NCBI GenBank assembly: GCA_003602575.1
Contig: QQRY01000044.1
Location: 27,166 to 71,979, forward strand
Direction: 5' to 3'
Source: Candidatus Poseidoniales archaeon
GTDB lineage: Archaea > Thermoplasmatota > Poseidoniia > Poseidoniales > Poseidoniaceae
DNA: 44,814 nt
The notes beneath the pieces are model-generated. The model did not search any database. It was not told the origin of the DNA and saw nothing but the letters and a program-made list of their open reading frames with translations. Position numbers and translations under genes: made by a program. This document shows positions 14,980 to 23,530 of this stretch, piece after piece (the stretch's first letter is position 1; every line of letters begins with the position of its first letter).

Positions 14980-16995
14980 ATGGTCGAATTACCTCAGGGG
15001 GTTGTCATAGAAGTTCGCCGTGGTGGACACGACGCTTTGAAGCAACTAGCAGGTGATATGTCGAGACTCAATGTTTCTGGTCATATTCGTATTGAGCGTA
15101 AACCAAAAGAATTGATGCCACGTATTAGTCAAGTGATTATTCAAGATGGAATGCCAAAAATTGCAATTCATGAGTCTGATGCGATTAAAATGGGTCTTGA
15201 GGCATTGTTAGAGATTGAGAGTGATGCAACAGCAATAGATGCTTTAATTTCATTACATGAACTTTCAGAAGAGGAATTAGATAAAGTCATAAGATTATAT
15301 CCTGATGCAAATATTTACTCTCAAGAACAAAATGAATCAAGCGATGATGGGCAATGGTGGAATCAAGTAAAATTACAATCGAGAAGATGGGCAAGAGACA
15401 ACCGCCTACCTGAAATGGAAGCAACGGTCGATGCTCCTGAATTTATAAGACAGAAAACCCAAGCACAACTAAGGAAACTTGAAGGCAATACAAGGCAATT
15501 GAATCTAGGAGATGTAATACTATTTGATGCGGATGATTCTAGTCTTTTAGTTGAACTATCGGGTGCTTTAGCAGGGCATGGAAGGCCGATTCAAATAATC
15601 ACTAGAACTCATCCTACAATTTTGAATAGAGCACATGACATACCAGTTAGTTCTTGCCTCTGGCTCAGTACAAGTGACGAAGAAGGGGCAATTTCATCAG
15701 ACTTAGAAAATTTAAGAAGAAAAATTTTGAACTTCTTATGGGCTAATAAACAAGCAATAGTAGCTATCGATGGCTTAGAATACTTGTCTAGCAGAAATGA
15801 TGATTCAGCCTTGATGGACTTCATTCGTAGCATAGCCGATGAGGTTCGAATGGAAGACCACGCATTATTATTATCTTGCGATCTTTCATCATTTGAATCC
15901 AAAACAAGACACAGTATTACAAGAGAAGTAGAAGAGTTGTCGACAAACATTGTTGATTTATGGTTAATGGAAGATGAATCATTGTTCGAGCATCCAATTT
16001 GTAGAGATGTTAGTGAAGAAGAGTCTATGTGGATTCAGCAGCAACTAAACCTTCATGCATCAAGAACTGGTGATTTAATTCATTCTTCCAGTGTTGAACT
16101 TGTTGGAGGAAGTCCAATTATCGAACAAGAAGATGTTATTTCTGCTGGTGAAAATTTAGCCCAAGTTGTTGATCAATGGAGCGAGGAATCACGACAAGTG
16201 CCTCAAATCTCTCCGATTCAGGAAGTATTTGAGGAAGCGAGTAAGGAATTTATTGTGAAATCATATCAAGATGAGAAATATGGAGATAATAGTTTAGATG
16301 ATGTTCTTGATGACAATGACTCATCAGTTATTCTAGAGCATAGTAACCAATCATTATCTGAAATAGAACTTATAGATGAGCCGGCGCCTAAAGTTTCTAT
16401 CAAAATAAAATCACCAGTGCCTCGTAGCCCGATTAGGATGAAGAGGAGAAAAGTTCGAAAATCAAAAAAGCATAATGATTCGGTGCATATTTCGAAAAGT
16501 AGAATCTCAGCAGCAGTAAAAAATAATGCTGAGTTAACTGATATTGGCAATTTAGAATCTTATAAGGCAAGAAAATTAGGTATTTCTGATAACCTGGCAG
16601 AATACTCTCAACGTCAAGATAATGCCTTCAATAAAACATTCAAAGAAAATGACCAATCTTCTGATAAATCTCTAATTCAAGCAAGTATGCAGAAAGCTGC
16701 TAAGAAGAATCCTTCGATTAAGTCAATGAAATCGGAAAGGAAACACCAGCAATTGGCGGTAATACTTGATAAAAATCAAGATACATCGTTGAATCCATTG
16801 ATGGCAAGAGGGGTAAAAGTTGATACAAAAGTATCAAAGTTTTCTAGAGAATCTGCAACCCGAAAACAAACTATTACCACCGTTGATGAGCATTACCAAG
16901 AATGGACTAAAGGTGAAAATACAGCCAAGTCCTCGGGAAAATTATTTGATGAAAAGGGTAAAGAATTGAAGAAAGTAACAGGTGATAGACAATGA
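14980..16995 (+). CDS. DUF835 domain protein with basic tail, DnaA-like operon
   Basis: A 671-residue protein. Residues 1-115 look like an archaeal regulatory domain of the DUF2226/DUF4388 kind (weak recognition). Residues about 165-325 form a DUF835 domain, an archaeal RecA-like fold of unknown biochemistry, recognisable by VILFDADDSS, IITRTHPTILNRA, WANKQAIVAIDGLEYLSS and HALLLSCDL. There is no Walker A. From about residue 420 the chain is low-complexity and becomes highly basic (SPIRMKRRKVRKSKKH near 485-500), plausible for nucleic-acid or membrane binding. It is the first gene of a three-gene operon; its stop overlaps the next start (ATGATG at 16992). Confidence 0.65.
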   Translation: MVELPQGVVIEVRRGGHDALKQLAGDMSRLNVSGHIRIERKPKELMPRISQVIIQDGMPKIAIHESDAIKMGLEALLEIESDATAIDALISLHELSEEELDKVIRLYPDANIYSQEQNESSDDGQWWNQVKLQSRRWARDNRLPEMEATVDAPEFIRQKTQAQLRKLEGNTRQLNLGDVILFDADDSSLLVELSGALAGHGRPIQIITRTHPTILNRAHDIPVSSCLWLSTSDEEGAISSDLENLRRKILNFLWANKQAIVAIDGLEYLSSRNDDSALMDFIRSIADEVRMEDHALLLSCDLSSFESKTRHSITREVEELSTNIVDLWLMEDESLFEHPICRDVSEEESMWIQQQLNLHASRTGDLIHSSSVELVGGSPIIEQEDVISAGENLAQVVDQWSEESRQVPQISPIQEVFEEASKEFIVKSYQDEKYGDNSLDDVLDDNDSSVILEHSNQSLSEIELIDEPAPKVSIKIKSPVPRSPIRMKRRKVRKSKKHNDSVHISKSRISAAVKNNAELTDIGNLESYKARKLGISDNLAEYSQRQDNAFNKTFKENDQSSDKSLIQASMQKAAKKNPSIKSMKSERKHQQLAVILDKNQDTSLNPLMARGVKVDTKVSKFSRESATRKQTITTVDEHYQEWTKGENTAKSSGKLFDEKGKELKKVTGDRQ

Positions 16996-19115
16996 TGAAT
17001 CGTAGGCAAAGGCTTCACTCAGCATTGGATAATGCCAAGCGACATTTACAATCTTTAGACGGTGAATCTAGTGAAACTGATAACTCAGAGCCTTCAAAAG
17101 ATTTTACCCCCTCTAAATCTAAACTTAATCATTTACTTGGGAGAAAGTCAGTTCAAGATGCACGCACTACGAAGTTACTTCAGAGGGTTGGTGTATCAAA
17201 TAGGCCAACATTTGATTTGATTGCAGACCATGTTCTAGGAAGAGATAGTCGTAAATTCAAACCTTCTTTAGACCTAGCCAATGATGGCGATGATGTTTCA
17301 GATGTTGTAGCAAAAAGATTAGCCAATTTAAGGCAAAGAACGTTTGAATCTTTAGAAGATATTAGTGAATCTAACTTTGGAGATGACAATAATTATGTTG
17401 GATTTGACGACGAAGGTACTCCAATTTGGAAGAGTGTAATGCAAGGTCAAAGGAGGAGTGATAAACTAACAAATCTTGAACTCGAGCAAGAAATATCCCT
17501 TGCAGCACATCATCATTCTGTATATATCCCAAAAGATTTTGATTGGCCCAAAAAACTTGGTTTTGAAACACATAATACATTCAAACATTGGGTCACAGTT
17601 GTCGAAAATCGCCGAGCAACTCAATTGGCTGAAGGAGTTATTGATTCGCCTGGAAATGCACTAAATCCATTGTTGATTATCGGAGATAGAGAGACCGGTC
17701 GCTCACATTTGATTCATGCAATTTCACAGTCGATATTGCAAAGACATGAAGGGCATGTCTTCCTTCTATCAGGGGTTGAAATCGAGCAACTAGAAGCACT
17801 CCCTGAGGGGTGGCAGGAGTCTTTAATCGGATGTCGACTATTGGCATTTGATGATATTGATATGATTGTAGAAAACAAACTCTTGGCAAATTTAATTGGT
17901 AAAATGATAGATTATGCATTGAATTTGAATGTTCATGTTGTTCTTACTTCATCATGTTCACCTAGCGATTGGCCTGCCTCAAGACTTTGGGATTTGTGCC
18001 GAGGAAGTGTTCAAACTACAATGAAACAGCCTAGTGCAGGAAGTCTGATGTTATTTGCCAGAAGAAAATCAATCTCGATGAATATTGTTCTAGATGATAG
18101 CCAGTTGGCAACCCTTGTCACACATGATGCGTTGAGTTGGCGATCTACAAATTCAAACTTGGAAAAGTTAGCAGCATCAATTAGGAGTGGAGAACAGATT
18201 GTTGATGCACACGATGTATCTTCAATACTTTCTGATATGCCTCTTGAATCACAAATGGAACATGATGATATTGTACGTGAACGTGTTGAAGATATTGCTC
18301 AAAGACTTATTTCCAACGCTGTAGATGTTGTTTATAGCGACCATGAACTAGGTGGTATAGAATTAACCAGTGAACTACCTGAACTCACCGAAGAGTATGA
18401 ACCTCCTAATTGGGACAGTGAAGAACTATCAAGTTCGCAAGCAGACTTATTGGAAAGGCATGTTAAAACAACTCTAGAAGATTTAACTCCTGAAGCCCCA
18501 TCTGTCCTAGATTTACATGACCGTGATAAGCACTTAGTAGCTGAAAGAACACGAATAAAGAATGAAGATTTTGGCAAAGCAGCAGATATTTTAACAGATA
18601 TTGAAATGAATCTTGATGACCAGTTCCACTCAGCAGAACTCGAGTTAAATGAAAATTCCATAATTCTAGAAGGTCTTGAAAAGTCTATGATAGATTTAGC
18701 CCAGAGGGCTAGTGATGCATCACTTGAAGATTTAATTCTAATTGCAGATGACTTGAGGGAATTGGAAGAGAAATTAGTAGAGATAGACCCTGAAAAACCT
18801 CCATTGCCAGAATTTGTCGAGGCAAAATTAATTCGTAAGCCCGCTAATAGAAGAAAGAAGAAGCAGCGTACTGCAAAGGCAAGTATTCTGAAAGTATCAT
18901 CAAATATTTCATCGATTCTAGATAGTCATGAGCCTGAAGGTGAATGGAATATCAATGATAGTGAAGTGTCTGCAGATGACCTTTTATCATCAGATAATTT
19001 AGCGATTAATTCACTTAAAGAAATCAAGCAAACATTAGTTCCTCATCCTGACGGAAATCAAAAAACAGCTACCTTGACTGTAAAATCCGTACTTGTTTCG
19101 GGTGAAGAAGAATGA
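16992..19115 (+). CDS. DnaA-like AAA+ protein with altered Walker A
   Basis: A 707-residue protein. Residues about 180-410 closely follow bacterial DnaA domain III: HNTFKHWV near 194, then NPLLIIGDRETGRSHLIHAI (225-244), LLAFDDIDMIV (283-293) and HVVLTSSCSPSDWP (315-328, sensor 1-like). The Walker A lysine is Arg: GDRETGRS instead of GxxxxGKS. Walker B keeps both Asp residues. There is no DnaA domain IV helix-turn-helix; instead the C-terminal half is acidic and coiled-coil-like (about 490-620), followed by a basic RKPANRRKKKQR patch near 621-632. A role as archaeal replication initiator is unlikely, since archaea use Orc1/Cdc6. It is coupled by overlap to both neighbours. Confidence 0.7.
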   Translation: MMNRRQRLHSALDNAKRHLQSLDGESSETDNSEPSKDFTPSKSKLNHLLGRKSVQDARTTKLLQRVGVSNRPTFDLIADHVLGRDSRKFKPSLDLANDGDDVSDVVAKRLANLRQRTFESLEDISESNFGDDNNYVGFDDEGTPIWKSVMQGQRRSDKLTNLELEQEISLAAHHHSVYIPKDFDWPKKLGFETHNTFKHWVTVVENRRATQLAEGVIDSPGNALNPLLIIGDRETGRSHLIHAISQSILQRHEGHVFLLSGVEIEQLEALPEGWQESLIGCRLLAFDDIDMIVENKLLANLIGKMIDYALNLNVHVVLTSSCSPSDWPASRLWDLCRGSVQTTMKQPSAGSLMLFARRKSISMNIVLDDSQLATLVTHDALSWRSTNSNLEKLAASIRSGEQIVDAHDVSSILSDMPLESQMEHDDIVRERVEDIAQRLISNAVDVVYSDHELGGIELTSELPELTEEYEPPNWDSEELSSSQADLLERHVKTTLEDLTPEAPSVLDLHDRDKHLVAERTRIKNEDFGKAADILTDIEMNLDDQFHSAELELNENSIILEGLEKSMIDLAQRASDASLEDLILIADDLRELEEKLVEIDPEKPPLPEFVEAKLIRKPANRRKKKQRTAKASILKVSSNISSILDSHEPEGEWNINDSEVSADDLLSSDNLAINSLKEIKQTLVPHPDGNQKTATLTVKSVLVSGEEE

Positions 19116-20818: not shown

Positions 20819-21973
20819 TCACTTGATTACAGGTCTAGATGTTTTTCCCGAACCCCGATGTCCAATTAATCTAACACTTTCCCATGGCGGAGAGTCTGTG
20901 CTTTTTGCTATTGTATCATCTATATCAATTTGCCAATTCCATTTTTTACGCCAATACTTAATCAGTTCAATTTTCCTTTGTTTATCACATTCATTCCATG
21001 TTGGGGTTTCTAATTTTAATTGCTTAATTATCGAAAGATGCTGGTCTTTAGTTGCATTGTCCAATATGAAATTTTGACTTTCATCCAGAGGCATTGTCGC
21101 AGGATTAAACCATCTTGCTTTATCACTTGGCAACCAAGTTAAATTTGGGTCTAGGTGATCGCTTAGTGCAGTTAATCCAGCACTCAATACTTTGTGTTCT
21201 AATTCGGGTTTAGTTGGCCATACATAAGTCGGAGTTCCCTTTTGACATCTCGATAGATATTCTCTACGCTTTCCTTGTAGGCCAACCATTCTTCCAAATA
21301 GTGCACGTGAATAAATCGGTGAGAAATATTCCATTGCACATGGAACCATCGAAGAACCTGAATTTCTATGTTTCTTGACTAGACGGGAAAATGGGGTTAT
21401 GAAATATTGTGGGTATGCATACATCCTCTTCATTGTACGTGTTCCAATAGTTGGTACAGATGGCATTAATTCAGCCCAATTACGTGTAATAGATTCTTTT
21501 TCAATTATTTTATTCATACCTTTGTAGAATGAATAGAAGACCGAGTTTTGATTTGGAATTTCTTCTTGTTTTAATTTTAATTCTGCTATTTTCATAGCGG
21601 CACTCAAATTACTTATCTGCCTTGACTTAGAAAATATCCCCCTACCACTAGGGGATAGTAGATGAGGCCTTTTGAATTCAAGACAAACCATCTTACCCTT
21701 TTCAATCCACTGTTTTCTTATTATGGAATCATTCAATATGTCATCTAGAGAGCAGAACCCCTCATTCTTTAGTTCATCTAAACTCCAATTTTCTACCCAC
21801 TTACTGCGGTCATCTAAGTTCTCTTTTGGAATAGATACAACAGAATCATGGTGGACGATAAGTTCATTATCACTGGTCAGGCGAATATCGAGTTCTATAC
21901 CATCAGCCTGAACAATCCCATGTCGGAGACTTTCCAAGGTATTTTCCGGCGCTTGTTCCCACTTTCCCGGCAT
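20819..21973 (-). CDS. Glycerophosphodiester phosphodiesterase, apparently circularly permuted
   Basis: GDPDs cleave glycerophosphodiesters to glycerol phosphate and an alcohol, and normally begin HRG-(loop)-PENT. Here PENT is at residues 9-12, right after the start, followed by GIELDIRLTSDNELIVHHD (25-43, metal ligands Glu27 and Asp29 and the catalytic His region) and CLEFKRP (97-103). The missing first strand with HRG occurs instead at the very C-terminus: RLIGHRGSGKTS, with His372 and Arg373 of 384. An in-frame TAA lies six codons upstream of the ATG, so no HRG is hidden at the N-terminus. The order fits a circular permutation cut inside the HRG-PENT loop. Residues about 110-300 include unrecognised insertions. 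No signal peptide is visible. Confidence 0.8.
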   Translation of the reverse strand: MPGKWEQAPENTLESLRHGIVQADGIELDIRLTSDNELIVHHDSVVSIPKENLDDRSKWVENWSLDELKNEGFCSLDDILNDSIIRKQWIEKGKMVCLEFKRPHLLSPSGRGIFSKSRQISNLSAAMKIAELKLKQEEIPNQNSVFYSFYKGMNKIIEKESITRNWAELMPSVPTIGTRTMKRMYAYPQYFITPFSRLVKKHRNSGSSMVPCAMEYFSPIYSRALFGRMVGLQGKRREYLSRCQKGTPTYVWPTKPELEHKVLSAGLTALSDHLDPNLTWLPSDKARWFNPATMPLDESQNFILDNATKDQHLSIIKQLKLETPTWNECDKQRKIELIKYWRKKWNWQIDIDDTIAKSTDSPPWESVRLIGHRGSGKTSRPVIK

Positions 21974-22096: not shown

Positions 22097-23530
22097 ATGA
22101 GCCCATATAGAGTTATGATGTACATGATTCTATTTTTGACGCCAATTATTTGTTGGGCATTCACATTGAAAATGAAAGGTCGTAGAATTCCCATAAGAGA
22201 TTGGATAAAAGAATTCCATGAAAAGCGATACTATCTACACGCTATCGGATATATCATTATTATCAGATGGAAATCAATTACTGATTCTCTTAATGAACCG
22301 ATCAAGATGAATGTTGGACATTGGACCAGCTGGCTTTACTCAATTGAAGGTGAATTCACTAAAGGAATTCAGGATTTTTTTTACAATGATACTCTAACGG
22401 CAATTTTGAATTTCCATTATCTGTTCATCTATCTTTTCTTAATCTATGTCACGACTGTATATTTTGCATATAGCGGAGATAGAGATATGACTGATAAAGT
22501 TACTATGAATTACCTCTTAATTTACGCACTTGCAGTTCCTTATTATTTATTCTTCAATGTAGAGGTGACATCTTCGTGGATACCAGGCATGGATGCTTTA
22601 CTTTACCAAGATGGGGCATACACTTCTTTCTATGCATTACACGACCCGTTAGATAACGCAGTACCTTCTTTACATGTAGCAATACCATTTGGAATATTGG
22701 TTTTGAATTATCTCCATGTCAAAGAAAAGGGCGGAAAGATGTCTGATTGGGACCATTGGCCATATCATTTATTTATTCTAATCAATACGATTATTTTCTG
22801 TTTTTCAATTTTATATCTCGGGATTCATTGGTTCACTGACATCCCATTAGGAATGATAATTGGTGGAATAGGTGCACTTTTCATTCATCATTTACAACCA
22901 AGACTTAGAAATGATCACGGTTCTTTCTTCAAAGGAATTACCCGTTCTAAAGTCAAAAATCATTCGATAATTGAAGGAATTGGGACCTTATTTATGCTAA
23001 CAATTATTCTTATGGCGGTAAACTTCCAAATTGACCAGTCGGATGAAAGAGTCTCTTACAAATTAGGGCCACAAGACTCAACCTTCGAAATAATTCAAGA
23101 AATAAGTTATGGGGATGTAGTAGATTCTCAAATAACTAATTTGGATGATAGCCTTACTCTCGAGGTAGTATATTTACAAGTTGAAGAGAGTGTCTCAGCC
23201 ATGGATGGTGGGAATATAGATTGGGATGAACTGAAAACTTTAGGTGAAAATTATTCGATTCCTGCCGGAGGGACATTAGAAATTAAAACAACTCAGCATA
23301 ATGTATTTCATTTCATTATATTACACAATTCTGCGGAATCTTCAGATTCAGTTTTAGATGTTAGAGTAGAGAATGATTATCATGAAGATAAAATGGCTAA
23401 TGCTATTATACTATCATTGCCCTCACTGTGGATGACAATGTTTGTCTTCAATCGATTGAGAAGATTAAGACTGAATAAGCGTTCATTAATCGATTCTTCA
23501 CCATCACACATTTGGGATGAAGAAGAATAG
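22097..23530 (+). CDS. PAP2-superfamily membrane phosphatase/phosphotransferase (Aur1/IPT-like)
   Basis: A 477-residue polytopic membrane protein. The PAP2 motifs PSLHVAIPFG (about residues 194-203) and YLGIHWFTDIPLG (about 244-256) supply the catalytic His and His/Asp residues. About six helices lie in the first 270 residues, as in inositol phosphotransferase-like PAP2 proteins that act on lipid head groups. After a further helix near 295-312 there is an extracytoplasmic domain of about 120 residues, then a last helix and a short cytoplasmic tail. It is divergent from the GDPD gene; both could act on phospholipid head groups. An AAGGGGCG-like site precedes the ATG. Confidence 0.75.
   Translation: MSPYRVMMYMILFLTPIICWAFTLKMKGRRIPIRDWIKEFHEKRYYLHAIGYIIIIRWKSITDSLNEPIKMNVGHWTSWLYSIEGEFTKGIQDFFYNDTLTAILNFHYLFIYLFLIYVTTVYFAYSGDRDMTDKVTMNYLLIYALAVPYYLFFNVEVTSSWIPGMDALLYQDGAYTSFYALHDPLDNAVPSLHVAIPFGILVLNYLHVKEKGGKMSDWDHWPYHLFILINTIIFCFSILYLGIHWFTDIPLGMIIGGIGALFIHHLQPRLRNDHGSFFKGITRSKVKNHSIIEGIGTLFMLTIILMAVNFQIDQSDERVSYKLGPQDSTFEIIQEISYGDVVDSQITNLDDSLTLEVVYLQVEESVSAMDGGNIDWDELKTLGENYSIPAGGTLEIKTTQHNVFHFIILHNSAESSDSVLDVRVENDYHEDKMANAIILSLPSLWMTMFVFNRLRRLRLNKRSLIDSSPSHIWDEEE

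Follow-up and report, generated by a model that had tools for sequence, protein, structure and literature searches.

Glycerophosphodiester phosphodiesterases (GDPDs) canonically have a linear order in which strand beta-1, bearing the catalytic HRG motif, precedes the PENT motif. The window (i.e., the whole stretch of DNA analyzed here, 44,814 nucleotides from a Candidatus Poseidoniales archaeon) encodes a 384-residue protein that departs from this order. Its chain starts with MPGKWEQAPENT, the PENT motif being P9-T12, and finishes with RLIGHRGSGKTSRPVIK, which contains His372 and Arg373. The question raised by this locus is whether such a chain is a circular permutation of a GDPD, as the initial annotation had proposed, or a degenerate or wrongly read gene. 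We conclude, with a probability of roughly 0.88, that the gene encodes a GDPD with a circularly permuted TIM barrel in which the catalytic beta-1 has moved to the C-terminus.

Reading frame and family membership

The translated open reading frame agrees with the initial description of a chain that begins just before PENT and carries HRG at its C-terminus (Table 1); the five residues RPVIK lie beyond RLIGHRGSGKTS at this end. An in-frame stop codon stands six codons (SHHGIS) upstream of the ATG, and none of the frames across the 123-bp gap that separates the gene from the divergent PAP2 gene contains HRG. The initial annotation had discounted a hidden N-terminal HRG on the basis of the stop codon.

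The protein matches PF03009 (GDPD) above the curated threshold (46.4 bits against a cut-off of 23.6), with positions 7–69 of the 244-position profile aligned to residues 7–72. As the match starts at profile position 7, the first profile positions have no N-terminal counterpart. The GDPD catalytic set is complete: His372/Arg373, Glu27, Asp29, His42, Glu99, and Lys101 fall in the same columns as in 39 canonical GDPDs when the tail is moved first. Because HRG begins at residue 372 of 384, we class the protein with permuted variants and apart from canonical GDPDs.

Table 1. Features of the putatively permuted GDPD gene and its neighbors, in window coordinates.
Feature	Position	Strand	Basis
Putative circularly permuted GDPD gene, 384 aa	20819..21973	-	ORF; PF03009 46.4 bits; order common to 166/172 distinct homologues
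PENT motif, residues 9–12, now N-terminal, before helix alpha-1	21938..21949	-	Sequence; model helix 13–22
Beta-2 with Glu27 and Asp29, residues 24–31, counterparts of metal-site residues	21881..21904	-	Conservation; model strand 25–32
His42, counterpart of second catalytic His (GDPD insert)	21848..21850	-	165/165 members; His in 39/39 canonicals
Beta-3 Glu99-x-Lys101	21671..21679	-	Conservation, 165 members and 39 canonicals
Beta-8, residues 268–272, last strand of canonical GDPD	21158..21172	-	Model strand 268–271; hhalign
Helical linker, residues 273–367, beta-8 to putatively moved beta-1	20873..21157	-	Helices 298–305, 312–322, 331–345, 351–357
Putatively moved beta-1 and catalytic loop, residues 368–376, RLIGHRGSG	20846..20872	-	Model strand 369–372; HRG columns
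His372 codon	20858..20860	-	
Citrate synthase gene, convergent, ends at base adjoining GDPD stop codon	19634..20818	+	PF00285 294 bits
PAP2-superfamily protein gene, divergent	22097..23530	+	PF01569 35 bits
Gene for 707-residue protein with bacterial DnaA ATPase domain match	16992..19115		37.5 bits

Conservation of the motif order

Motif order was read in 216 loci, which yielded 172 distinct sequences with the N-terminal motif. HRG was found near the C-terminal end in 166 of the 172, with the histidine at the 8th to 19th position counted back from the last residue; this count, the unbiased measure of the C-terminal motif, rules out a chance match. Five of the six homologues without the motif (L024, L112, L116, L126, and L167) are truncated by contig ends, such that HRG is retained in 166 of the 167 distinct homologues uncut by contig ends. 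It had also been argued that homologues with an additional N-terminal HRG would count against permutation, and none with such a strand was found among the 172. Two of them have HRG ahead of the motif while also carrying it at the C-terminus: in L095, SHRG occurs in frame directly before the ATG, in a stretch that lacks a start codon and contains ambiguous bases, and in L100, HRG lies at the distant upstream end of a lengthy open frame, again with no start codon ahead of it. An additional mid-chain HRG was observed in 13 of 165 members.

The sixth homologue, L052 (genome G037), is a permuted gene without the beta-1/HRG tail. Its frame ends early, and the 460 bases read there, taken in three frames, show no HRG strand; the loss would reflect either decay or an assembly error.

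A 48-sequence alignment leaves out L024 (contig end), L052 (tail absent), and L029 and L030 (N-terminus outside the frame), and shows N11, E27, D29, H42, E99, K101, W252, D272, and H372-R373-G374 to be invariant. The 165-sequence alignment comprises members selected for the C-terminal HRG, so the invariance of HRG in both alignments is partly by construction. Within the latter, E27, D29, H42, and E99 are invariant in 165/165 members and K101 is present in 164, the remaining one being ambiguous. The matching columns of the canonical GDPDs hold E-x-D in 39/39 and His in 39/39, with 37 Glu and two Asp at the Glu99 column, and 38 Lys and one ambiguous residue at the Lys101 column. Once the tail is placed first, 30 permuted GDPDs share their HRG columns with the 39 canonical ones. 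The spacing from D272 to H372 is 99 residues in the window protein and ranges from 60 to 103 across the permuted family.

Profile comparisons across the joined termini

The canonical profile used for comparison comprises 39 GDPDs (49 loci offered, nine failing the motif filter and one duplicate); these were picked for having HRG before the motif and their order is therefore by construction. In native order, the family profile aligned to it with an hhalign score of 123.4 (residues 6–277 on columns 14–257 of 268), and a second match, of residues 365–379 on canonical columns 2–16, was weak (probability 17.6). Moving the tail (last 25 columns) first produced a single alignment over columns 2–257 with a score of 145.2. 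The same score was obtained with a doubled profile, whose best path ran through 365–384 and then 1–277 against canonical columns 2–257; that is, the best alignment crosses the junction of the joined C- and N-termini. With fifty column-shuffled control tails, scores averaged 123.8 and never exceeded 127.4.

Single-sequence scoring agrees weakly with permutation, the gain being small. Re-ordering the window protein increased its Pfam score from 46.4 to 48.9 bits and extended the match from profile positions 7–69 to 1–69; without the linker, the re-ordered protein scored 49.4 bits, compared to 47.0 when the tail was shuffled and 47.1 when it was left off, both matching from position 7. The homologue L035 rose from 36.7 to 41.3 bits. 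When 100 members were re-ordered and scored with a 17-sequence canonical HMM, 95 gained (mean 2.6 bits) and 58 matched from the profile start, compared to none before re-ordering; a gain was likewise seen for 400 of 500 shuffled tails, averaging 0.6 bits and reaching 8.0 bits at most. As this HMM distinguishes true from shuffled tails on average only, the profile-profile comparison was used.

Predicted structure

An AlphaFold2 model of the window protein, built on 65 sequences, had a mean pLDDT of 93.1 and a pTM of 0.92. Its main predicted strands (residues 25–32, 95–100, 144–148, 165–168, 210–213, 249–254, 268–271, and 369–372, with a short extra strand at 38–40) correspond to the usual eight strands of a GDPD-type TIM barrel, with beta-1 coming last. 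The C-terminal HRG segment, for which the initial annotation had anticipated a strand in such a model, was predicted with confidence as strand 369–372, and pLDDT was 96 for both residues 361–370 and 371–380. A similar prediction was obtained for L132, in which 60 residues separate the beta-8 Asp from the HRG His (pLDDT 89.8, pTM 0.89, C-terminal strand 320–323). Its linker, about 40 residues shorter, is poorly ordered (pLDDT 62–81); pLDDT was 71 for residues 311–320 and 95 for 321–330.

Foldseek retrieved 52 PDB chains at E up to 0.001, led by 1o1z (E 6e-8). The best 50 of the 52 are mostly named GDPD, the others being lysoplasmalogen- and lysophosphatidylglycerol-specific phospholipases D, the phosphodiesterase 3qvq, and two beta-1,3(4)-glucanase entries. 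TM-scores by target for these best 50 were 0.30–0.65, from sequential alignments that are blind to permutation. In a coupling analysis of 165 sequences (Neff 92), the beta-8/beta-1 pair 269–369 ranked fourth of 71,253; we do not use this as support.

Distribution and gene neighborhood

Genome counts rest on profile matches. Of 59 near genomes, 55 had a match, and the family profile matched 180 of 194 sampled genomes of the class, which comprise 173 in the order (families f1 and f2) and 21 in a third family (f3) outside it. We take the order to be Poseidoniales (Marine Group II). Within it, 167 of 173 genomes had a profile match and 165 a match to the permuted family; G050 and G183, from one genus, matched only via canonical GDPDs and are left out of the 165. 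Matches were strong (E 4e-62 or better) in 164 of the 165, while G006 contributed a 24-residue tail fragment only. In the genus of the window, PF03009 detected one protein in 31 of 35 genomes, always at the permuted gene, and none in four.

Outside the order, the third family gave weak matches in 13 of its 21 genomes, and all 13 GDPDs read there were canonical, with HRG near the N-terminus. Across the phylum, 140 of 294 genomes had a match; among the matches listed, those outside the order were weak (best E 1.6e-9) and mostly covered residues ~7–80. When 150 genomes of the phylum were searched with Pfam, nearly all outside-order matches listed began at profile position 1.

Other GDPD-like genes occur within the order. 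Genus g9 includes genomes with permuted and canonical GDPDs together (L164 and L186 in G123; L165 and L185 in G204) and two, G050 and G183, in which a canonical GDPD alone was found; the canonical GDPD of this genus has an N-terminal hydrophobic segment. G037 encodes a short GDPD-like paralogue (L159, the single example whose motif was read) with HRLG in place of HRG, and other f2 genomes have PF03009 matches in frames of 190–215 residues. Judging from profile matches that start at positions 2–7, this short f2 paralogue is apparently in canonical order.

For the gene neighborhood, 80 loci were retained from at least 395 relatives in the named collection. In 77 of the 80, a convergent citrate synthase gene follows downstream, within 120 bases in 72 loci; in the other three, the contig terminates before the GDPD gene is complete. 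PAP2 is present in 67 loci and divergent upstream in 66. In L102, L103, L105, L107, and L117, the distance from the GDPD gene to citrate synthase is ~3.3 kb. Separately, the window of this archaeon holds a gene whose product matches a bacterial DnaA ATPase domain (Table 1), and many relatives retain this gene close to citrate synthase.

Proposed origin of the permuted family

FastTree recovered the permuted clade as monophyletic (1.0) and adjoining third-family canonicals (0.75 with LG, 0.88 with WAG), and a core-only IQ-TREE gave the clade a support of 43 and a different sister; these support values were taken after re-rooting and may be off by one node. W252 and D272 did not line up with the canonical W and D columns in the alignment behind the trees. 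Given that the two trees place the clade differently, we claim no sister. A single origin that predates the last common ancestor of the order's members, with vertical inheritance thereafter, most likely accounts for the family; a tandem duplication or a fusion, after which both ends were lost, may have been the route. A viral source was also considered and rejected, as 77 pattern matches in viral contigs included no relatives.

Proposed mechanism and alternative explanations

In the proposed arrangement, the chain would run from alpha-1 (PENT) through beta-2 to beta-8 and the helical linker to beta-1 with its HRG loop. The cut would fall within the catalytic beta-1/alpha-1 loop, so that both chain ends should meet at the mouth of the active site. 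The C-terminal strand would close the barrel between beta-8 and beta-2, bringing His372/Arg373 to the metal site (Glu27, Asp29, and Glu99) and to His42. By homology, the enzyme would use the metal-dependent GDPD mechanism with two histidines to hydrolyze glycerophosphodiesters, and release of glycerol phosphate from them may be its role. The active site would become complete only after the last ~20 residues are made.

Closure need not occur within one chain. In a strand-swapped dimer, beta-1 of one subunit would complete the barrel of its partner and the site would exist only in the oligomer. The tail sits on a long, variable linker that could reach a neighbor, and sequence does not distinguish the two forms of closure; the monomer models, on the other hand, place the strand both in the window protein and in L132, with its shorter linker. 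We therefore regard the dimer as unlikely, and closure within the single permuted chain as probable.

The remaining explanations dispense with permutation. If the gene were degenerate or truncated, it would have lost its N-terminal strand and the C-terminal HRG would be a matter of chance or serve another role. The restricted native-order Pfam match and the tail-less L052 fit such a history, but the C-terminal motif is kept in all other distinct homologues uncut by contig ends, the tail aligns to canonical beta-1/HRG while shuffled tails score far lower, and E27, D29, H42, and E99 are kept throughout the 165 members, making this account very improbable. Less probable still is that a frameshift, wrong start, or assembly error conceals an N-terminal HRG. 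The SHRG preceding the ATG of L095 would be in keeping with this, but the upstream stop codon and the HRG-free 123-bp gap stand against it, 28 of the 172 members have 12 or fewer open residues before the EN of the motif, and the same motif order recurs across many assemblies. Truncation, frameshift, and chance are hence rejected. Circular permutation, as first proposed, is supported by the motif order of the homologues, the junction-crossing profile alignment compared to shuffled tails, the two models, and the uniformly canonical GDPDs of the third family.

Relation to known systems

Canonical GDPD/GlpQ enzymes (PF03009; PDB 2pz0, 4oec, and 1o1z) are the best sequence and fold matches of the protein and have HRG, E-x-D, H, E-x-K, and the predicted TIM barrel in common with it. 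In contrast to them, the permuted family has beta-1/HRG at the C-terminus, 60–103 residues after the beta-8 Asp, and both of its chain ends lie in the active-site loop. The permuted protein is also longer (384 residues, compared to ~220–290 for most matched GDPD chains).

Changed order has been associated with other barrel enzymes. GH70 glucansucrases are TIM-barrel enzymes with changed order. Work on non-sequential alignment discusses transaldolase B and class I aldolase (PMC2213659), and the amylase MalS has a C domain split around the barrel domain (PMC10223318). All four are linked with permutation but belong to superfamilies other than GDPD, and in MalS the barrel itself is uncut in the catalytic loop, unlike in the permuted GDPD.

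Among the Foldseek matches is LpgD, a lysophosphatidylglycerol phospholipase D (PDB 8ghh/8ghi). LpgD belongs to a GDPD subfamily whose site depends on Mn and uses two histidines, and the GDPD mechanism involves two histidines, a metal, and a cyclic phosphate intermediate (PMC10404611). In the same work, the LpgD mutant H51A retained significant activity, and H93A was deficient. LpgD is in canonical order, its first active-site His being residue 51, whereas HRG of the permuted GDPD is C-terminal; we read His51 as the counterpart of the HRG His. The window protein matches the LpgD family NF053857 (NCBIfam) weakly, at 23.5 bits, far under the family cut-off of 450. No description of a permuted GDPD was found among the open-licence PubMed Central papers listed, in line with the initial annotation, and the term "permuted" is absent from the searched main text of PMC3482391.

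Very probably, this is the first natural circular permutation of a GDPD, arising close to the root of Marine Group II in a single event that cut the catalytic loop, and kept across the order with a site that forms after the whole chain. As PF03009 covers about a quarter of the protein's length, annotation may label permuted genes partial. The family offers a natural experiment on barrel folding, in which the catalytic loop is cut and yet almost every genome sampled from the order retains the gene, and canonical relatives in the same class provide a matched comparison. If the permutation is true, the C-terminus would lie no more than ~20 residues from the conserved catalytic His and Arg, and the active site would form only once the whole chain is present.
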